Shown piece by piece: positions 4,782-36,284 of a stretch of DNA of 42,568 nt; within the stretch, counting starts at the first letter, position 1; the number at the start of each line of letters is the position of its first letter. The notes below the pieces were generated by a model. It saw nothing but the letters and a program-made list of their open reading frames with translations, did not search any database and was not told where the DNA came from. Source of the DNA: Candidatus Methylomirabilota bacterium (GTDB lineage Bacteria > Methylomirabilota > Methylomirabilia > Methylomirabilales > 2-02-FULL-66-22); the NCBI GenBank assembly GCA_016209735.1, contig JACQVN010000024.1, positions 1-42,568 of the forward strand, read 5' to 3'. The position numbers were made by a program, and so were the translations under genes.

Positions 4782-4955
4782 CCCTCTCCCCCGAGGGGGA
4801 GAGGGGAAGAGTGAGCGCATTGGACCAGCAGGCTGCTGAAACTCCCTCCGCTCACCCTTCGACAAGCTCAGGGTGAGCGGTGCAACGGGTAGAATCGTTG
4901 ATATCTTACCGCTCATGCTGAGTCCTGAGCCTGTCGAAGGGTCGAAGCATGAGCG
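4782..4955. repeat. Palindromic repeat cluster between binding protein and permeases
   Basis: Three nested palindromes lie in the 4725-5042 gap. One is CCCTCTCCCCC paired with its complement (4782-4805). The second is an element with outer arms CGCTCACCCT/AGGGTGAGCG around a GACAAGCTC core (4848-4880). The third has outer arms CGCTCATGCT/AGCATGAGCG around the inverted core (4909-4955). The CGCTCA family recurs at 9597, 10694, 13562 and 33290. Apart from the hairpin at 5000-5042, nothing else is seen in this gap. Confidence 0.7.
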
Positions 4956-4999
4956 TGCACCTTTCACCATCCTGCCAGGGTTCAACGCCGGTCAGTTAG

Positions 5000-5042
5000 C
5001 CCAAATTCGCCACGAACGCTCTCTGTTCGTGACGAAGTTGGG
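5000..5042 (-). terminator. Stop-linked hairpin after the binding-protein gene
   Basis: Two 18-nt arms (5000-5017 and 5025-5042) pair at 16 of 18 positions around a 7-nt loop. The hairpin starts immediately after the TAA stop (5045-5043). No clear U-tract follows, so mRNA stabilisation or partial attenuation ahead of the permease genes is as likely as full termination. It belongs to the TAACCC/TAGCCC hairpin family also seen at 18143 and 34669. Confidence 0.6.
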
Positions 5043-6164
5043 TTAGGGCACTAGCTCTTTGACGTTGCCCTTGATGTAGTCGATCATGTCCTTCCGGATG
5101 CGGTCGCGCGGGATCGCCGTCTTCTTCAGCACGTCCAGTTTCGGGATCATCTCCCAGACGATTCCCGGGATCTGATCGGTGACCTCGGTCCCGGGATACT
5201 GCCACATGGTGGAAACCAGGCGAACCTGCTGGTCATCGGAGAGGAGGTAGTTGACGACCCTGAAGGCCGCCTCCTTGTACGCCGGCGGAATCCCCGCGGG
5301 GACGGCGAAGTAGCTTGTGGCGAGCTCGTCCGCGCCCTCCTCGGGATAGGTGGCCTTGATGGTCGGCGGCATGGTCCCCTGGCGCGCCGACCAGAGCGCG
5401 TAGTCCTGGGCATAGAGGGCGATCCAGGTCTCCCCGGCGTTGAAGTTTTCGAACAGGTTCACCGGCTCCGAGGCCAGGGGGGCCGTGGCATACTTGGTGA
5501 AGTCCTTGAGCTTGTTCCAGGCGTCCTGGAAGGCCGGATCCTTCTGGAGCTGCGCCAGGGGCCTGCTCATCTTCTCCTTCAGGAAGGCGTGCAGGAAGAC
5601 CACCCGCTGGCGCCAGGCGGAGCTGGACTTGGCGTCCGGCCGGATCAGGCCGATGTGGCCTTTGAACTCCGCGCGCCGATCGTAGAACTCCTTCCAGGAC
5701 TTGGGCGGGTTCTTGATGTTCTGGCTGTTGTGGATCATGGCGTACGAGGTTCGCCAGTAGAGGACGGCCTTGCTTTGCAGCTCCACCCCCTCGTCCTGCT
5801 TCAGGTACTGGGGATCGATCTTGGCGGAGTTCGGGATGTTGGTGGTGTTCAGGGTTTCGAGAGGAACGCCCGATTTCACCCAGGTCGCGATAGACTTGGG
5901 GAAGAGGATGTGGAAGTCGCCCTGGCCCGGCTTCCAGGCCCTGGTCTTCTGGATCTGCTCGGCGTCGCTGGTGACGAGATACTTGATGTTGATCCCGAGG
6001 CTTTGCTTGATGGAGGGGATCACGAACTTCTGGAAGTAGGTCTGGAAGTTCGCGCCCGACATGCTGTCGGCCATGACCAGGTCGGTGGGGACGCCGGCCG
6101 CGGCCGGCGTCGGGAGTGCCAGGATGGCGAACAGGGCTAGCAGTGTCCACGTTCGGGTTCTCAT
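5043..6164 (-). CDS. ABC transporter periplasmic substrate-binding protein
   Basis: A 373-aa extracellular solute-binding protein of the PotD/iron-type family 1 class, with a signal peptide ([20 protein letters not shown], cleaved near AAAG). The mature part begins [20 protein letters not shown] and contains the typical [10 protein letters not shown] hinge segment and [11 protein letters not shown]. The ATG at 6164 was chosen because AGGAGGAG lies 6 nt upstream and it gives a clean signal peptide; an in-frame ATG at 6191 is less likely. It delivers substrate to the permeases and ATPase encoded downstream. A stop-linked hairpin follows. The ligand is unknown; the neighbouring dehydrogenases and phosphatase suggest a sugar- or cyclitol-like compound. 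Confidence 0.9.
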
Positions 6165-6391: not shown

Positions 6392-7538
6392 CGCGAACCC
6401 GCCGGCCGGTCCTCGCGGCCTCCAGGAGCGCGTCGCACAGGACGGCGTTGCGATAGCCGTCCTGGAAATCGGCGGCCAGGGGCGGCACCGGGACCTCGCC
6501 GGCGATGGCCCGGGCGAGGTGGTGGAGCTGATGGACGAAGGGGTGCTCCCAGCCAAGGATGTGCCCCGGCGGCCACCAGGTCCCGCCGTACGGGTGATCC
6601 CGCTCCGTCACCAGGACCGTGACGAAGCCCCGGTCCCGCCGGGATCGCGGCGCCGGTCGGTAGACCTCCAGCTCGTTCAAGCGCTCCAGGTTGAAGAGGA
6701 GGGTCCCGCGGGTGCCGTTGACTTCGAAGGTCAGGAAGTTCTTTCGCCCCGGAGCGCAGCCTGAGGCCTCCAGTGTTCCCATGGCGCCGTTGGCGAATTC
6801 CAGGGCTCCCACGAAGAGGTCCTCGACGTCCACCCGCCGCGTCTGGCGGGCCCCGGGGGAGACGGGGCGGCGGGGGTGGACGATGCGGCTCATGCCGACG
6901 ACCCCCGCGGGCTCACCGACCAGGAAGCGGGCCAGGTCCAGGGCGTGCGAGGCCAGGTCCCCCACCACGCCGCTCCCCGCGGCTCGCTTGGACTGCCGCC
7001 AGGTGTGGGGGGTGGAAGGATCCACCAGGGAGTCGTCGGTGTAGCGGGCGCGAAACTGCAGCACGTTCCCGAGATCCCCGGCCTGGACCATTTCCCGGGC
7101 CAGGCGGACGGCCGGAATGAACCGGTAGTTGAAGCCGACCTGGTGGAGGACGCCGGCCTCTTGCGATCCCTGCCAGATCCGCTTGGCCTCTCCGGCATCG
7201 CGGCCCAGCGGCTTCTCGCAGAGCAAATGTTTTCCCGCCCCGGCCGCGGCGAGGCAGGGCGCGGCATGCCCGTCGTTGGGGGCGCAGTTGATCAGCAGGC
7301 CGATGTTCCGATCGTCCACCAGCCGGCGCCAGTCGGTGGCGGCGTAGGCGAAGCCGTAGCGGCGGGCGGCAGCCCCGACGGATTCTGCCAAGCGACCGGC
7401 AATCCCCACCAGCCGGAAGTCGACCGGGCTGGGCCAGAAGATGTAGGGCAGCTTTTTCAGGGCGTTGAGGTGGGCCCTGGCGACGCCAGCGTACCCCAGC
7501 ACCCCGACGCCGATGGTGAGCGGCGATCGGGCGGCCAT
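6366..7538 (-). CDS. Gfo/Idh/MocA-family oxidoreductase 2
   Basis: A 390-aa NAD(P)-dependent dehydrogenase of the glucose-fructose oxidoreductase / inositol dehydrogenase family. The N-terminus has a Rossmann fold (TIGVGVLGYAGVARAHLNAL) and HLLCEKPLG, the conserved EKP motif near residue 105. The C-terminal substrate domain contains SGVVGDLASHALDLARFLVG, with the conserved D and H, and a WPPGHILGWEHPFVHQ segment. The ATG at 7538 overlaps the stop of the phosphatase gene (TGATG), so a longer upstream extension of the frame is spurious. The last residues, QHVTRNT, and the TAA are encoded by the heptad repeat, almost as in the creatininase gene. The substrate is unknown. Confidence 0.9.
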   Translation of the reverse strand: MAARSPLTIGVGVLGYAGVARAHLNALKKLPYIFWPSPVDFRLVGIAGRLAESVGAAARRYGFAYAATDWRRLVDDRNIGLLINCAPNDGHAAPCLAAAGAGKHLLCEKPLGRDAGEAKRIWQGSQEAGVLHQVGFNYRFIPAVRLAREMVQAGDLGNVLQFRARYTDDSLVDPSTPHTWRQSKRAAGSGVVGDLASHALDLARFLVGEPAGVVGMSRIVHPRRPVSPGARQTRRVDVEDLFVGALEFANGAMGTLEASGCAPGRKNFLTFEVNGTRGTLLFNLERLNELEVYRPAPRSRRDRGFVTVLVTERDHPYGGTWWPPGHILGWEHPFVHQLHHLARAIAGEVPVPPLAADFQDGYRNAVLCDALLEAARTGRRVRVQHVTRNT

Positions 7539-8446
7539 CAAGGCCTCCCGGGGGAGCCCCGGCCGGTCGGCGTGAGCGCGGCCACCAGCCGGCCGTGTAT
7601 GTGACCGTTGGACGCCAGGATGGTCGGGTCGTCGAGATCGAAGGGGCGTCCGGCCCCCGTGGTGACGCGCCCCCCCGCCTCCCTCACGAGGAGCGCACCT
7701 GCCGCGAGGTCCCAGGGATGTGCGCTCTGCTCCCAGTAGGCATCCAGCCGCCCCGCGGCGACATAGGCGAGGGCGAACCCGGCCCCGAAAATGCGGACGT
7801 TCCGCACCCGAAGGGCCAAGGCGGCGATGCGCTCGCGCAGCGGCCGATTTCCCCACACCGTGTCGTCGTGCCAGAGGGAGAGGACGCACTCGTGAAGGGC
7901 CCGCCGCCCCGACACGCGGATCCGCCGGCCATTCAGCCAGGCGCCCCGCCCGCGCTCCGCCACGAACAGCTCGCCGAGGCCGGGGAAGTACGCGACGCCG
8001 GCCTCCAGGGTCCCCCGCCGCTCCAGGGCGATCAGGACGGCATAGAGGGGGAGGCCCGTGACGAAAGCGAGGGTTCCGTCCAGCGGGTCCACGATCCAGC
8101 GGCCGTCCGGGCCGTTCCGGGCGCCGCCTTCCTCGCCCAGGAAGCCGATGCGGGGGAAGCGTCTGCGGAGCATCGTTTGAATCCGCCGCTCGGCGGCGGC
8201 GTCCACCTCCGTCACCGGATCCTTGGCCGACTTGAGGCGTACCTGCCGCGGCCGGCCGGCGCGACGCAGGAGGAGGCCTCCGGCGGCCAGCGCCGCCTCG
8301 ATGGCGGCCTGAGTCTCGGACAAGAACCGTACGGCAGTACGGCGGTTCGATAGTACGGCAGTACGGGAATACGGCAGCTCGCCTGCTTTCGTACCGTCGT
8401 ACTGCCGTACCGCCGTACTGTCGTACGTCTTTAGCTGTGCGCTCAT
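7538..8446 (-). CDS. Inositol monophosphatase-family phosphatase
   Basis: A 302-aa member of the IMPase/SuhB/CysQ family, Mg-dependent phosphatases for inositol phosphate, PAP or sugar phosphates. Metal-site motifs are present: GEEGG (about 104), WIVDPLDGTLAF (about 117-128) and HPWDLAAGALLVREAGG (about 225). The ATG at 8446 overlaps the preceding stop as ATGA. With that start the first 40 or so residues (KTYDSTAVRQYDGT to RRTAVRF) are encoded by the octad repeat, and only from about residue 42 (FLSETQAAIEAAL) does family-like sequence begin. A TTG at that point is an alternative start. The neighbouring Idh-type enzymes make a cyclitol phosphate a plausible substrate, but this is inference. 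Confidence 0.88.
   Translation of the reverse strand: MSAQLKTYDSTAVRQYDGTKAGELPYSRTAVLSNRRTAVRFLSETQAAIEAALAAGGLLLRRAGRPRQVRLKSAKDPVTEVDAAAERRIQTMLRRRFPRIGFLGEEGGARNGPDGRWIVDPLDGTLAFVTGLPLYAVLIALERRGTLEAGVAYFPGLGELFVAERGRGAWLNGRRIRVSGRRALHECVLSLWHDDTVWGNRPLRERIAALALRVRNVRIFGAGFALAYVAAGRLDAYWEQSAHPWDLAAGALLVREAGGRVTTGAGRPFDLDDPTILASNGHIHGRLVAALTPTGRGSPGRP
8326..8428. repeat. Inverted octad array inside a coding frame
   Basis: Arm one (8326-8382) reads as 8-mers CCGTACGG, CAGTACGG, then further copies including TAGTACGG, CAGTACGG and GAATACGG. Arm two (8388-8428) reads TTCGTACC, GTCGTACT, GCCGTACC, GCCGTACT, GTCGTACG. It uses the same word as 1788-1942. Here the element lies between the ATGA-coupled start at 8446 and the conserved part of the phosphatase, without a stop in that frame. 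Confidence 0.75.
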
Positions 8447-15038: not shown

Positions 15039-16451
15039 ATGAAACGCATCTCGGTGGTTTGGCGCTTGGCGTTCTCCTTCGTGATCGGGCTCGTGGTCCT
15101 GTCGCTTCTTTCTGGCTGCGCCTCCACGGGGGGCGGGGAGCTGTCCGGCGCCTCGCCGGCGAAGGCCAAGAACATCATTCTGCTCATCGGGGACGGCATG
15201 GGGCCGAGCCACTTCGGCGCGGCCTGGCTCTACAGCACCCGGGTGCTGGGGAAGGAACTGCGGATGGTCGAGCTGATGAGGCGGGGGCGGACGGCCTACA
15301 TGGTCAACGACACGGCGGACGCCATCGTCCCCGAGTCCGCCGCCGCTGCCAGCCAGATGGCCACCGGAGAGAAGATGACCGCCCGGGCCGTCAGCGTGGC
15401 GGCTGACCGCAAGACCCCGGTCAAGACTATCCTGGAGATCGCGAAAGAGAAGGGACTGGCCGCCGGCCTGGTGACCACCTCCAGAATCACGGATGCCACC
15501 CCTGCGGCCTTTGCGGCGCACGTTGCGTACCGCAGCGACGAGGAGGCCGTGGCGGTCCAGGAGCTTCAGGCGGGCGTGGACGTCCTCCTGGGGGGACGCA
15601 AACAGTTCTTCCTGCCGGCTTCGGCGGGGGGGAAGCGCCAGGACGGCCGGGACCTCGTGGAGGAGGCCCGCCAGGCCGGCTACGCCGTGGTGGGAGACGC
15701 CGCAGGGCTGAAGGCGGCGTCCGGCAGCAAGATCCTCGGCCTGTTCAACATGGGGAACCTGGCCTACGAGATCGACCGGACCAAGACGGCCGAGCCCAGC
15801 CTGGCCGAGATGGCCGCCAAGACCCTGGAGATTCTCTCGAGGAACCCCAAGGGCTTCTTCGCCATGATCGAGGGCGGCCGCATCGACCACGCCGCGCACC
15901 GGAACGACGCGGCAGGCACGATCCACGAGGTCCTGGCATTCGACGCGGCGGTGGGGGTGGCCCTGGACTTCCAGCGCCAGGACCCCAACACGCTGCTCAT
16001 CGTGACGGCAGACCATGACACGGGGGCGATGGCCCTTGTCGGCGGCGGCAGAACTTCCAAGGGGTACGGGGGGAACGAGCTAGCCGCCATTCAGAAGGTG
16101 CAGACCTCCTTTGAGGTCATGGCCGGCGAACTGGGAAAGAACCCCGCCCCGGAGCAGATCCGGGAGGTGGTCAAAAAGCACATGGCCATCGATCTCACGG
16201 AGGACGAGGCCAGGACGGCGGCCGGCGAGACCGTCTGCAAGCTCGGTCCGGCCCCGGCCCATCACGAGGTCCCGGCGCTGCACGGCCTGGCGTTCGTTCT
16301 GCGGTCGTACCTGGGCGTCGGCTGGGGCAGCCAAACGCACACGGCCTCTCCGCTGATGCTGTTCGGCTCGGGGCCGGGATCCGAAGAACTGGTCGGGTTC
16401 CGCCACAATACCGAGGTGTTCCGGCTGATGCGGGCTGCCCTGGGGGGTTAA
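15039..16451 (+). CDS. Alkaline phosphatase, lipoprotein-type
   Basis: A 470-aa alkaline phosphatase of the PhoA superfamily, releasing phosphate from monoesters outside the cytoplasm. The ATG at 15039 gives MKRISVVWRLAFSFVIGLVV and then a lipobox LLSGCAS, so the mature enzyme is probably a lipoprotein. Metal and catalytic motifs follow in order: LLIGDGMGPSH, PESAAAASQMATGE (nucleophile Ser region), FAMIEGGRIDHAAHRND, TADHDTG, and a late His in GSQTHTASPLMLFGSG. An in-frame ATG 66 nt upstream would hide the signal. The stop TAA is the first codon of a TAACGCGGATTATTCAC repeat arm, as in other genes here. Confidence 0.93.
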   Translation: MKRISVVWRLAFSFVIGLVVLSLLSGCASTGGGELSGASPAKAKNIILLIGDGMGPSHFGAAWLYSTRVLGKELRMVELMRRGRTAYMVNDTADAIVPESAAAASQMATGEKMTARAVSVAADRKTPVKTILEIAKEKGLAAGLVTTSRITDATPAAFAAHVAYRSDEEAVAVQELQAGVDVLLGGRKQFFLPASAGGKRQDGRDLVEEARQAGYAVVGDAAGLKAASGSKILGLFNMGNLAYEIDRTKTAEPSLAEMAAKTLEILSRNPKGFFAMIEGGRIDHAAHRNDAAGTIHEVLAFDAAVGVALDFQRQDPNTLLIVTADHDTGAMALVGGGRTSKGYGGNELAAIQKVQTSFEVMAGELGKNPAPEQIREVVKKHMAIDLTEDEARTAAGETVCKLGPAPAHHEVPALHGLAFVLRSYLGVGWGSQTHTASPLMLFGSGPGSEELVGFRHNTEVFRLMRAALGG

Positions 16452-16790
16452 CGCGGATTATTCACCAGCCGGCATTTTCTTGGCAGGACACGAAAAAGAA
16501 ACTTGGATGGGCCCTTCGCACAGCACACGCTCTTCCTGAAGCGGGAGGGGATAAACCTCTCCACCTCCGGGAGGGGATAAACCCCTCCCCTACGAGGGAC
16601 CGTGTTCGCGTCAATTGTGGTTGCGTAGGGGCGGGCCTCATGCCCGCCCGCTTCCCGGTGGAGAGGGTCAAGATCGGTTCTCCGTGCCCCGCCGCTTCGT
16701 GATCTTCGTGCCTGCCTGTCCCGCTCCGGAGCGGGATGCAGGCAAGTCCTTCGTGGTAAAATGGGCGGCTTGTGAATAACTCAGGATAGT
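16449..16790. repeat. Repeat-filled gap between alkaline phosphatase and FAH genes
   Basis: This stretch has no gene but several repeat types. A stop-linked arm TTAACGCGGATTATTCAC is at 16449-16466, with a possible partner GTGAATAA near 16772. A 16-bp direct repeat CGGGAGGGGATAAACC occurs at 16542 and 16568. A GTAGGGGCGGGCC/GCCCGCCC hairpin (16625-16650) also occurs at 36371 and 40627. A long GCCTGC...GCAGGC hairpin is at 16711-16744. TTCGTG-word repeats run through 16697-16755. Confidence 0.65.
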
Positions 16791-18142: not shown

Positions 18143-18187
18143 CTAACCCGGGCTATTCACGGTCTGTTGGTGAAGAGCCCGGGTTAG
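18143..18187 (-). terminator. Stop-linked hairpin after the exported protein gene
   Basis: Arms 18143-18160 and 18170-18187 pair at 17 of 18 positions around a 9-nt loop. On the minus strand the hairpin begins with CTAACCCGGG, whose TAA is the stop codon of the gene ending at 18184. The sequence is related to the hairpin at 5000-5045, including a shared AACAGA loop segment. No U-tract is seen. Confidence 0.6.
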
Positions 18188-18642
18188 CGGCCGGGATAGA
18201 AGCGGTGCACGGCCTGCCACTTGCCGGTCTGGGCGCTGAAGCCGAGCGCCCGCTGACGCGTCAGGATCGTGGCCAGGTTTCCCTCGACCTTGAACTGTTC
18301 GACGGTTTCGTCCTGGGGAAGGCGGAGCTCATCTGCCACGTTGAGCATGCCGCTGAATCCGATGGCCCGGGACGAGGTGACCACTGCCACGACGTTCCCG
18401 TCCGCCCCGCGGTGGAGGACTCGCTCTCCGGACTCCAGGCGAACGGAGGTCCACGTGCCGAAGGGGGCGCTGAAGAGGAGGAGTTCCCGGGCCACCACGT
18501 GCAGGGCGACGTTGGTGAGACTCTCCCCGGCCCGGGCCGGGAGCGGGAGGATGAGGGAGGCGATGGCGAGTCCCAGGCCTATGACGCCGTGGCCCCGGGC
18601 GGACGAACGGATGGAGCGGAATCGGGAGGGAGGGAGAATCAA
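18184..18642 (-). CDS. Exported protein of unknown function, coupled to PilZ
   Basis: I do not recognise this family. A TTG start at 18642 overlaps the TGA of the upstream PilZ gene (TTGA) and gives 152 aa with an Arg-containing n-region, a hydrophobic stretch (VIGLGLAIASLILPLP) and a likely cleavage after ARA. The mature part has two similar units, VVAVVTSSRAIGFSG and LATILTRQRALGFSA, about 45 residues apart, suggesting a small repeated beta structure. The alternative ATG at 18732 would bury the signal sequence. The stop is provided by a hairpin repeat. Coupling to PilZ hints at a cell-envelope role, but this is inference. Confidence 0.65.
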   Translation of the reverse strand: MILPPSRFRSIRSSARGHGVIGLGLAIASLILPLPARAGESLTNVALHVVARELLLFSAPFGTWTSVRLESGERVLHRGADGNVVAVVTSSRAIGFSGMLNVADELRLPQDETVEQFKVEGNLATILTRQRALGFSAQTGKWQAVHRFYPGR

Positions 18643-19115
18643 CGGGAAGCATCCCGACCGGGTGGGCGGCGCGATCGGGGACGCGCGTCCCGGTCCACTT
18701 TGCCTTCCTCCCGGGCGAGCTTTCGCAGCCATTCTCCCAGGAGGACGCTGACGGGCAGGTCGAGGACCTCGCTGCCCTCGGCGAGGCGGAAGCCGTAGTG
18801 GAACACCTCCTTCCTCCCGGCGACCTTGCGGGCCCAGAGGACCTCGGCCTCGAGCCGCAACGGCCCGATGCCCGTCCGCACTTCGATTTTCAACTTCTTC
18901 CCCGGGTCAAGCTTGGCAGGCAGTTCAATGGCGAAGCCGCCGCCGCTCACGTCGGCGGTCCGACCACGCCAGCAGCCCGGTTCCTCTCCCATGCGCTCCG
19001 TGATCTTCACCGCCAGGGCGACGGGAAACCGTGGGTGCCGGCGGGCGTCGCCGCGAGCAGGAATCCGGCGCGGTTTTTTCGAGGTGGCAGGATGGGTCAA
19101 GGTGGTGCGTGCCAT
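18639..19115 (-). CDS. PilZ-domain protein
   Basis: A 158-aa single-domain PilZ protein, a family that binds cyclic di-GMP and passes the signal to motility, exopolysaccharide or secretion machinery. DARRHPRFPVALAV provides the RxxxR motif near residue 25, and TADVSGGGFAIELP gives the D/NxSxxG motif near residue 55. WARKVAGRKEVFHYGFRLAE closes the beta barrel. The C-terminal 25 residues are basic and low-complexity. It is followed directly by the gene for an exported protein with a 4-nt overlap. Confidence 0.88.
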   Translation of the reverse strand: MARTTLTHPATSKKPRRIPARGDARRHPRFPVALAVKITERMGEEPGCWRGRTADVSGGGFAIELPAKLDPGKKLKIEVRTGIGPLRLEAEVLWARKVAGRKEVFHYGFRLAEGSEVLDLPVSVLLGEWLRKLAREEGKVDRDARPRSRRPPGRDASR

Positions 19116-31160: not shown

Positions 31161-31246
31161 GATTGCGGATTGCAGATTTCACATTGCAGATTGAAGAAAC
31201 CCGGAGTCCCCAAATCTGAAATCTGCAATCGAAAATCTGAAATCGC
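31161..31246. repeat. Inverted heptad array, GATTGCA word
   Basis: GATTGCG, GATTGCA, GATTTCA, CATTGCA, GATTGAA (31161-31195) are followed by a 15-nt spacer and then CAAATCT, GAAATCT, GCAATCG, AAAATCT, GAAATCG (31211-31245). The second arm ends just before the mtnP ribosome site (AAGAGGTGG). The element sits in the divergent region between the ThDP gene and mtnP. The same word is used at 33259, 41873 and 42276. Confidence 0.8.
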
Positions 31247-31260
31247 CAAGAGGTGGCTCC

Positions 31261-32133: not shown

Positions 32134-32242
32134 TGACTCAATGGAAACAATGACCAAGGACCAATGACCAAATTCCAATGGGTACCAATGCAGTGCATCC
32201 CCCCTCCCTTGGTCATTGAGAATTGGTCATTGGTCATTCTTG
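32124..32242. repeat. Inverted heptad array, CAATGAC word
   Basis: CAATGAC (32124), TAATGAC (32131), TCAATGG, then further copies including CAAGGAC, CAATGAC, CAAATTC and CAATGGG to about 32187. After a spacer, TTGGTCA, TTGAGAA, TTGGTCA, TTGGTCA, TTCTTGC (32209-32243). The first arm begins inside mtnP and contains its stop. Confidence 0.8.
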
Positions 32243-33378: not shown

Positions 33379-34671
33379 ATGGCGGATTGGCGAATCCTGG
33401 TGACGGATGACGAGCCCTATGTGGTCATGGCGATTCGTGAGGTGTTGGAGACGCTGCCCGCCACGGTGATGGAGGCGAATAGCGGCGAGGAAGCGCTCCG
33501 GATCGCTCGGGCGGATCGACCCGATCTCGTCCTCCTGGATGTGAGGATGCCCGGACTCGACGGCTTCCAGGTGGCGGAGAGTCTCAAGAAGGATCCGGCC
33601 ACGGCATCCATTCCCCTGGTGTTTCTGAGCGCCCTGGGCTCGTCTCGGGAAAAGGTCCGCGGCCTGGAGCTCGGGGCGGAGGATTACCTGGCCAAGCCCA
33701 TCGATTCCGATGAGCTGAAGGCGCGCGTTCGCCGCGTGCTGCAGCGCTTCCGGCCCGTGACGCAGGAGCCTCCCGCGCGCCTCAGCGGGGGACGGCTGGA
33801 GTCGATGAACTTGGCGACCCTCATCCGACTGTTCGAGAAGGACCGGCGATCCGGGACCCTGGCGCTGACCTGCGGGGAGAATCGGGGGGAGCTGCTCCTG
33901 GTGGACGGTCACGTGATGCAGGCGGCCCAAGGCCCGCGACAGGCCGAGGCGGCCGTCTACCACATGCTCCAGTGGCGGCAGGGAGAGTTCGAAATGGGGT
34001 CGCACGACCTGGACCGGCGCATCGGCGCCGAGGTGACGGCCCCCAACCAGGCCCTGCTGATGGAGGGCCAGCGCCGCGAAGAGGAGAGCCGCGTCTTGCG
34101 GCAGCAATTGGGCGCCTCCCAGGGGCCGATGCGGGTGCCCACGGCCGTGCGGGCGGCAGTGGAGCGGCAGGCCCCCCGCCCCATGGTGAATTTGATGGAG
34201 CTCCTGGACGGCTCGCGGGATCTTGACCAGGTTATTTCCGAGAGCCCCTTCGACACCTGGGTGACGCTCAAGGTCCTGGTGCACTTGCAGCAGGTCGGGG
34301 CCATCGAGGTGGGCGGGCCCGATGCCGAGCGGCGGGGCGGGCTGCGGCTGAGGGTCGGACTGCCCATCCAGTACCAAAGCATCGACCGATGGCTGCAGAG
34401 CTCCAGCTTCAATCTCTCGGCCTGGGGAGTGTTCGTCCGGACATCGGTGCCCTTCGATGTCGGCACCCAGGTGGTCCTGCAATTTGCGATGCCGGGCGGG
34501 TCGGTGCCCATCACGGTCACGGGTAGGGTGATCTGGAGCAACCCGGATGCCAGCAAGTGGTCCGGCATGGGTATGGGGATCGAGTTTCTCGACCTGCCCG
34601 CGGTGCACCGGGAGGCCATCGAGGCCCACCTGGCGCAACTGATTGCATCGCGGATCTCGGAGGAGGCCTAG
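33379..34671 (+). CDS. Response regulator REC-DUF4388(PATAN)-PilZ-like, copy 1
   Basis: A 430-aa regulator. Residues 1-125 form a receiver domain with acidic D10-D11, phospho-acceptor D54 in LVLLDVRMPG, S84 and K106 in YLAKP. From about 133, LSGGRLESMNLATLIRLFEK is the start of a DUF4388/PATAN domain. The C-terminal 110 residues are a PilZ-like barrel with NLSAWGVFVRTSVPFDVG; the D/NxSxxG motif is present but the RxxxR motif is not clear, as in the Myxococcus-type PilZ variants. It has no DNA-binding output, so it likely acts through protein contacts. A paralog of the same architecture follows. Its TAG stop is part of a hairpin repeat. Confidence 0.88.
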   Translation: MADWRILVTDDEPYVVMAIREVLETLPATVMEANSGEEALRIARADRPDLVLLDVRMPGLDGFQVAESLKKDPATASIPLVFLSALGSSREKVRGLELGAEDYLAKPIDSDELKARVRRVLQRFRPVTQEPPARLSGGRLESMNLATLIRLFEKDRRSGTLALTCGENRGELLLVDGHVMQAAQGPRQAEAAVYHMLQWRQGEFEMGSHDLDRRIGAEVTAPNQALLMEGQRREEESRVLRQQLGASQGPMRVPTAVRAAVERQAPRPMVNLMELLDGSRDLDQVISESPFDTWVTLKVLVHLQQVGAIEVGGPDAERRGGLRLRVGLPIQYQSIDRWLQSSSFNLSAWGVFVRTSVPFDVGTQVVLQFAMPGGSVPITVTGRVIWSNPDASKWSGMGMGIEFLDLPAVHREAIEAHLAQLIASRISEEA

Positions 34672-34714
34672 CCCGCATTATTCGCGAACGCGGCTCGCGA
34701 ACAATGCGGGCTTA
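34669..34714 (+). terminator. Stop-linked hairpin after regulator copy 1
   Basis: TAGCCCGCATTATTCGCGAA and its inverted partner CGCGAACAATGCGGGCTTA form a long hairpin that begins with the TAG stop codon of the regulator gene. No T-tract follows. A relative of the same family, with no gene end attached, lies at 34881-34925. Confidence 0.6.
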
Positions 34715-34880
34715 GCAGACACCCTCGTGGTCAGCGACCAAGGACGGATCAGGCGGCGCTGTTGCATCTCGGCGGCGCACCCATCCTGGTGGACGGGTAC
34801 CCGGTGCGCCCACCACCATGCGTCATCCCGCCGTCCCGGTCCGGGATCTTGCGGACAGGCGGGATTAATCCTTGGTCATG

Positions 34881-34925
34881 TAAGCCCGGATTCTTCGCGA
34901 ATCCTTCGTGAATAATCCGGGCTAA
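34881..34925. repeat. TAGCCCGGATTATTC-type hairpin
   Basis: TAAGCCCGGATTCTTCGCGA pairs with TTCGTGAATAATCCGGGCTA. Together with 34669-34714 it brackets a 166-nt segment that also carries GACCAAGGA and TCCTTGGTC inverted words, so the whole 34672-34970 gap appears to be repeat-derived. The element ends 45 nt before the ATG of regulator copy 2. Confidence 0.6.
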
Positions 34926-34970: not shown

Positions 34971-36284
34971 ATGATTTCGTGGAGAATCCTGCTGGCGGAA
35001 GACGAAGCGCTCATGGCCCAGATGATGGTGGATATGCTGGCCGAGCTGCCGGTCGAGGTCACCGTCGCCCGGAACGGGCGCGAGGCCTTGGAGAAGGTGC
35101 AGCAGGCAGTGCCGGATCTCATCCTGCTGGATGCCATGATGCCGGAGCTGGACGGGTTTGAAGTGGCCGCCGCCCTCAAGAGCAACCCGGCCACGCAGGA
35201 CATCCCCATTATCTTCCTGACCGCCCGTGTCCGCGTGGAAGACAAGGTGCGCGGACTGGAGCTGGGGGCCGAGGACTACCTCATCAAGCCGGTTCGCCGG
35301 GAGGAGATCATCGCCCGGGTACGGAATGTCCTGCGCCGCTCGGAGGCGCGACGCGCGGCCGCGCCACCCCACTCCTCCCTGATGCAGGGGCGGTTGGAGG
35401 TGATGGGCCTGCCGAATCTGATCCAGGTTCTCGAGACGGAGCGGCGCAGCGGGACCTTGCGACTGACCGCGGGGGGCCGCCGCGGCGAGATCCTCTTCCT
35501 GGAGGGCCGCATCGCTTACGCCGTGCAAGGGCCGCGCCAGGGGGAGGCGGCCGTGTACATCATGCTGGCGTGGGAGAAGGGGGATTTCGAGCTGGAGCTG
35601 ACCACGGGCAAGGGGCCGGAAGGAGCGCAAATCGTCCGGCCCAACCAGTCGCTGCTCATGGAGGGCGTCCGCCGGCTGGACGAGCTGCCCGGCCTGCGCG
35701 AGGCCATGGCGATCCTGGACGGCCCCGTCAAGCTCTTTCCGATCTTCCGGGACGGCCTCCTTCGCCGGACCCTGCCCGGCGGGTTCAACCAACTGGTGCA
35801 CATGTGCGACGGGTCCAGGACGCTGTCCAAGCTGGTGGAGGTCAGCTCGCTGGACGAATGGAGCATTCTCACATTCCTGGACCGCTTCCTGAGGATGAAC
35901 ATGCTCGAGCACGGCGCGGTGGCGAAGCGGACCACGCCCCGGCTGGGGACCCAGGTCGCCCTGGAGTTCCACAGCCTGAAGGCCTTCCGCCAGGCCCGCA
36001 GCCTGGATGTCTCGGCCCGGGGCATGTTCCTGCGAACGACTCAGGTGTACCCGGTCGGAGAAGATATTCTGATTCGCTTCAACCTGCCCGGAATCGCCCA
36101 TCCCTTCAAGGCGATCGGCCGGGTGGTCTGGAGCAGCGCCACCGACACGCCCCAGGGCCTCCCGGCCGGCATGGGGGTCCAGTTCACCGACCTGGAAGCC
36201 TCAGAGCAGGTCACCATCGAGGAGTTCGTGGTCGAGCTCTTGCTGGATAAGGTCATGACGGAAGAGACTGAAAAGAAGGAGTAG
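34971..36284 (+). CDS. Response regulator REC-DUF4388(PATAN)-PilZ-like, copy 2
   Basis: A 437-aa paralog of the preceding regulator with the same domain order. The receiver has E10-D11, D54 in [14 protein letters not shown]84 and K106 in YLIKP. The DUF4388/PATAN part starts at [20 protein letters not shown]. The PilZ-like end carries [20 protein letters not shown]. The two copies are clearly diverged, especially between residues 220 and 310. A GGGGGGCG lies upstream of the ATG. Tandem copies with identical layout suggest either a phosphorelay with two outputs or a pair acting on one partner; no histidine kinase gene is adjacent. Confidence 0.88.

Follow-up and report, generated by a model that had tools for sequence, protein, structure and literature searches.

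That a repeat can supply the stop codon of a host gene is already known in kind, as the termini of REPs often supply TAG stops (2013 survey, PMC3733652). The GTAG-tagged REPs of that survey resemble the elements described here in being short palindromes at the 3' ends of genes; however, REPs measure 20–40 bp, carry a one-sided GTAG tag, and are linked to RAYTs, whereas our elements have a two-hairpin layout, reach ~260 bp, show TA at both ends, and have no GTAG. The RUP of Streptococcus pneumoniae is a short non-autonomous repeat inserted at TA, for which mobilization in trans by IS630-Spn1 has been proposed (PMC2229807). The elements here are likewise short, non-autonomous, and located at TA, but we found no IS630 partner for them, and stop-codon positioning of RUP is not reported in PMC2229807. 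IS630 itself prefers the TA in CTAG, according to the title of Tenzen and Ohtsubo (1991) as cited in PMC2170065, and ISY100 duplicates TA (PMC2170065); TA target and CTAG preference are common to IS630 and our elements, whereas a transposase is encoded by IS630 only. The Correia/NEMIS elements of Neisseria are MITE-like, are transcribed with genes, can form stem-loops, and have been proposed to be processed by RNase III (PMC2229807); MITE-like stem-loops are found in both systems, whereas RNase III processing is proposed for NEMIS alone. What is new here is a two-hairpin element with a TA target and two-thirds of its copies at stops, together with a reading-frame test and an empty site.

Stop-Codon Hairpins in the Window

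The window, a stretch of 42,568 nucleotides from a Candidatus Methylomirabilota genome (contig JACQVN010000024.1), contains hairpins at 4998–5044, 18145–18185, and 34670–34712, and the first codon of each of them is the stop of the gene running into it, as the initial annotation had claimed. These stops are the minus-strand TAA at 5043–5045 of a solute-binding-protein gene (SBP_bac_8), the TAA at 18184–18186 of a minus-strand gene without a Pfam match (18184–18732), and the plus-strand TAG at 34669–34671 of a gene with response regulator, DUF4388, and PilZ domains (33379–34671). The outer bases of each palindrome had also been read as TAA or TAG; the stops are indeed exact, but the true ends are T-AGCCC...GGGCT-A, so that the T comes from the flank and the AG from the element end.

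The hairpin at 34670–34712 (plus strand, A type, 67.9 bits with our covariance model) forms the left terminus of an element of 254 bp, whose right hairpin (34883–34923, minus strand, B type, 61.8 bits) has its outer end towards the next gene at 34971. Counting both TA copies (34669–34670 and 34923–34924), this complete two-hairpin element spans 34669–34924 on the plus strand and reads TA-GCCCGC...CCGGGC-TA; its flanks, joined through one TA, read ...GCC TAA..., which is a stop. The remaining two are solo hairpins on the minus strand, namely one of AACCC type at 18145–18185 (35.9 bits; palindrome 18143–18187; TA at 18144–18145 and 18185–18186) and one at 4998–5044 (TA at 4997–4998 and 5044–5045), which, scoring 17.5 bits (E 0.01), has diverged furthest among the hairpins of the window. 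A fourth site, at 16449, had been described as a half element supplying the TAA of the alkaline phosphatase gene. The first codon there is that stop, but it belongs to the left end of a longer plus-strand repeat (16449–16788) of a second family with the same terminus (TAACGCGGATTATTCAC ... GTGAATAACTCAGGATA).

The window contains several further repeats. Copies of a palindromic CCCTTCGACAAGCTCAGGG-type repeat (4849–4945) adjoin the 4998 hairpin, and imperfect palindromes in or beside intergenic gaps at 923–1011, 8337–8426, 31163–31249, and 32148–32238 are made of the short repeated words ACGTGAAACGT, GTACGGCAGTACGG, GATTGCAGATT, and AATGACCAA, with similar word-repeats found 3' of the rplU and secD stops in relatives. 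We also observe that the gene at 33379–34671 and the consecutive gene at 34971–36284 have three domains in common (response regulator, DUF4388, and PilZ), with nothing but the 254-bp element and a short leader between them.

A Family of Short Non-Autonomous Elements

The layout of hairpin A, a core with recognizable sequence, and hairpin B is repeated across the genome in elements of typically 115–260 bp, and solo hairpins occur as well. Element ends read TA-GCCCG...CGGGC-TA, and every end forms, on its own, a palindrome of ~41–50 bp that is perfect or nearly so. The family has the features of a MITE, being short and non-autonomous, with dozens of copies, a terminal AGCCCG[C/G]ATTATTC[G/A]CGAA in inverse orientation, and no transposase ORF. 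Many copies have TA on both sides, but about one third of two-ended copies have TG in place of the second TA, so a duplicated TA is not visible in all of them. Our covariance model (R1), built on the terminal hairpin, yields at least 147 matches, both strands counted, in the 1.69-Mb source genome, which is a fragmented and incomplete assembly (69% complete); this copy number is a lower bound given a ceiling of 150 scored candidates per genome. A full element at positions 1214–1427 of MEKI01000042.1 (L047), an 8.4-kb contig filed under an Acidobacteria MAG, and a likely second copy at ~6575–6744 were considered as an independent occurrence and rejected, as the model matches that contig only within a 3.6-Mb genome and the contig is probably mis-binned.

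Several element families have one terminus in common. The repeat at 16449–16788 shares its terminal ~17 bp with the hairpin elements and has TA at both ends; the repeat, of which eight related copies were aligned, starts with TARCCCGGATTATTCAC and finishes with ...GTGAATAACTCAGG(N)TA. Scanning the 702 kb for isolated ends gave a further 26, compared with 8 for 20 shuffled motifs together, and around half of these 26 coincide exactly with a gene stop. Relatives in the genus have hairpins whose outer ends read TA(A/G)-CCCG and whose core differs (GAATGACCAAATCCC); one of them (L170) has the two-hairpin layout, and all four of its ends with a detected coding ORF abut the stop of that ORF. Separately, a palindrome GGTTTTTGCGCGC..GCGCAAAAACC that recurs in or beside elements at L007, L016, L028, and L117 looks like a further repeat family.

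Elements Supply In-Frame Stop Codons

Elements were counted in 41 stretches (702 kb, including the window) picked around hits, and genes were called with a home-made codon-usage caller that reaches ~74–78% coverage and misses some genes. In this sample, 39 of the 58 elements have an end that is exactly the in-frame stop of a coding ORF (41 such ends in all), formed as T-AG or rarely T-AA, and 36 of these elements remain without the three weakest gene calls. The claim of the initial annotation that four genes in 42 kb exceed coincidence hinged on enrichment of copies at stop codons, which these counts bear out: stops account for 7.8% of tolerated non-coding TA sites, 19.3% of YTAR sites, and 30.4% of CTAG sites, and the observed share departs from these three null models with binomial P values of about 1e-29, 2e-15, and 8e-9, respectively. 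As a control, we took 34 strong hairpins from these stretches that are unrelated to the elements: three begin at most 4 nt from a stop, and 20 have no stop nearby; chance palindromes are ruled out by the binomial tests and these control hairpins.

Scoring of the three frames entering every outer end gave a ratio of 41:5:0 for coding frames 0, 1, and 2, plus one weak late frame-0 case. The exact ends comprise 26 of A type and 15 of B type, in agreement with the earlier proposal that a stop is given in either orientation, and in two elements both ends are exact stops (L083 4616; L110 2112–2365, between convergent genes). By gene arrangement, 31 exact elements lie between co-directional genes, seven between convergent genes, and none between divergent genes. 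The far end is often 7–26 nt from the next gene, which indicates that the elements fill the space between a stop and the following Shine–Dalgarno sequence. In three frame-1 cases (L099 17232, L115 1577, and L084 18728), the gene reads into the element and gains ~15–18 element-encoded residues.

Target Site and Orthologous Loci

The base preceding the T at the 41 exact ends is C in 27, G in nine, T in three, and A in two. The share of C exceeds that at other TAA/TAG stops (56 of 195, 29%; P 2e-5) and fits the published preference of IS630 for TA in CTAG. Outer ends read TA or decayed TA, and a TA target with CTAG preference is consistent with IS630 but not unique to it. A 4-bp YTAR duplication of the IS5-like kind was rejected given that the inner G/C hardly varies, whereas the two ends of a single copy have different outer bases.

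Deleting an element together with one TA in silico restores a stop at the original position in 20 of 30 tests; among the ten failures, six give TGG. Comparison with relatives, which are at species distance, provides one clean empty site. In a genome of the same genus that lacks the element (G005), the orthologue of an hflK-like cation-efflux/Band_7 gene ends ...PEGNKP-TAA-GCGTGGGAGGGAACT-ATG, and in the source genome the gene has the same C-terminus and ends ...LEGKKP-TAG-[element]-...AGGCAGGAGGCACCC-ATG. The spacer from stop to ATG, which includes the ribosome-binding site, is 15 nt in G005; in the source genome, 13 nt separate the TAG restored on the far side of the element from the corresponding ATG. 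SecD ends ...LSI both in the source genome, where the element is present, and in five genus relatives, but the relatives use TGA, so the ancestral TA is not seen at that stop; the end of rplU is retained as well. The phosphofructokinase gene differs, in that its protein is terminated by the element ~3 codons earlier than in relatives and the adjacent DNA, with the old spacer, has been lost, which shows that insertion exactly at the old stop is not universal.

Proposed Mechanism of Insertion

We hypothesize, with a probability of about 0.72, that the elements are copies of a MITE that has a TA target with a CTAG-like preference, falls into stop codons, and rebuilds them. Insertion would occur at TA, preferably in CTAG or CTAR, with duplication of the TA. 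Such sites are scarce within the genes of this GC-rich genome, and a sizeable part of the tolerated ones are TAA or TAG stops, often overlapping the Shine–Dalgarno sequence of the next gene (CTAGGAGG). Because the element contributes G (or, in the AACCC subtype, A) as its first base after the TA, the stop would be rewritten in place as TAG or TAA, whichever way round the element lies, and a single copy could do this for both members of a convergent gene pair. The upstream protein would then keep its length and the downstream gene its ribosome-binding site, and from that point the stop would come from the element. We posit that a TA-specific transposase, perhaps IS630/Tc1-mariner-like, acts in trans, that insertions elsewhere are purged, and that the hairpins have no essential RNA role.

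The CTAG preference alone predicts that ~30% of elements lie at stops, compared with the 67% observed. This difference is the basis of a more elaborate and, in our judgment, doubtful proposal, in which transposition recognizes stop-codon contexts as safe havens, with a site choice that goes beyond CTAG, and the termini have become adapted to recreating the stop in either orientation.

Symmetry of the Hairpin Arms

Placement behind stop codons would also be expected if the host used the hairpins, such that RNA behind the stop protects, processes, or terminates the transcript and selection rather than insertion chemistry sets the location. The arms do covary strongly: in 81 hairpins, 91% of arm cells are paired compared with 83% after shuffling, and clean two-sided changes are seen, for example at position 11 (A-T in 40, C-G in 13, and G-C in 10). 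Other palindromic repeats are also found directly behind the secD and rplU stops in many relatives. However, ~1,460 arm cells contain ~15 G-U pairs against ~126 non-pairs, although selection on RNA should tolerate G-U; the symmetry therefore appears to be maintained in DNA, and the covariation is no evidence for RNA function here. The pattern would fit palindrome correction at the DNA level or recognition of the ends by a transposase. Furthermore, the hairpins are not followed by the U run of an intrinsic terminator (the inner flank is TTAAC or TTAC and the outer flank A/G-rich), many lie in compact operons where termination would be costly (rplU-rpmA, secD, and the hflK-hflC-like pair), and the B hairpin beside the following gene is equally well kept. 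An Rfam search of the window gave no match at the gathering score. We therefore consider use by the host unlikely and an RNA role of the hairpins hypothetical, and the role in 3'-end termination or processing hinted at by the initial annotation is not supported.

Purging alone could in principle place the elements, if insertion occurred at random TA sites with no further target preference and only copies that happened to sit at stops survived. Near absence of interior insertions and dominance of frame 0 are what purging predicts, but non-stop non-coding TA sites outnumber stop TAs by ~12 to 1 (2,595 vs 221) and should be equally tolerated, and the excess of C ahead of the T suggests a preference for certain sites, which makes purging without such a preference quite improbable.

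Candidate Transposases

We did not identify a transposase gene with these ends, and the type of transposase in our preferred model, a MITE mobilized in trans into TA sites, is thus deduced from the TA target only; we do not claim membership of the elements in IS630/Tc1-mariner. The 69% complete genome has no DDE_3 match that could represent an autonomous IS630 with matching ends, and the DDE_3 loci of genus relatives lack matching ends. Among pairs of inward-facing ends up to 3.5 kb apart, Pfam scans of four cases revealed ordinary genes between the ends and no transposase. Three Y1 transposases are encoded in the genome, and their flanks lack the element palindromes; unrelated inverted repeats flank two of them. 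Y1 (HUH) genes at L183 866–1923 and L181 829–1926 have 24-bp terminal inverted repeats, one perfect (TAGGGGACGTTGTTGCCTTCGTTA) and one near-perfect (TAAYAGGGGACG.CCATGAAAT.A), and resemble what PMC3733652 calls 'TIRYT' (TIR-associated tyrosine transposase). Identity with GTAG-type REPs, which a RAYT tyrosine (HUH) transposase mobilizes and whose TAG would derive from the GTAG tag at the foot of the hairpin, is very unlikely and was rejected despite the three Y1 genes and the TAG stops often supplied by REP termini (PMC3733652), given that the GTAG tag is absent (G precedes TAG at only nine of 41 ends and C at 27), the hairpins are flanked by TA on both sides rather than tagged on one, and the Y1 genes are unlinked to them.

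Biological Implications

The two-thirds share of copies at stops, the empty site, and the frame statistics make the mechanism directly testable. The mechanism itself offers a simple route by which parasitic DNA could become hard to remove: a harmless landing followed by takeover of a codon that the host needs. If the termini have in fact evolved to rebuild stops, insertion would cost the host nothing, and deletion would be harmful given that the element owns the stop codon. Hairpins that covary and follow a stop codon are not necessarily functional RNAs, and part of what is annotated as stops and 3' UTRs in such genomes is mobile-element DNA.
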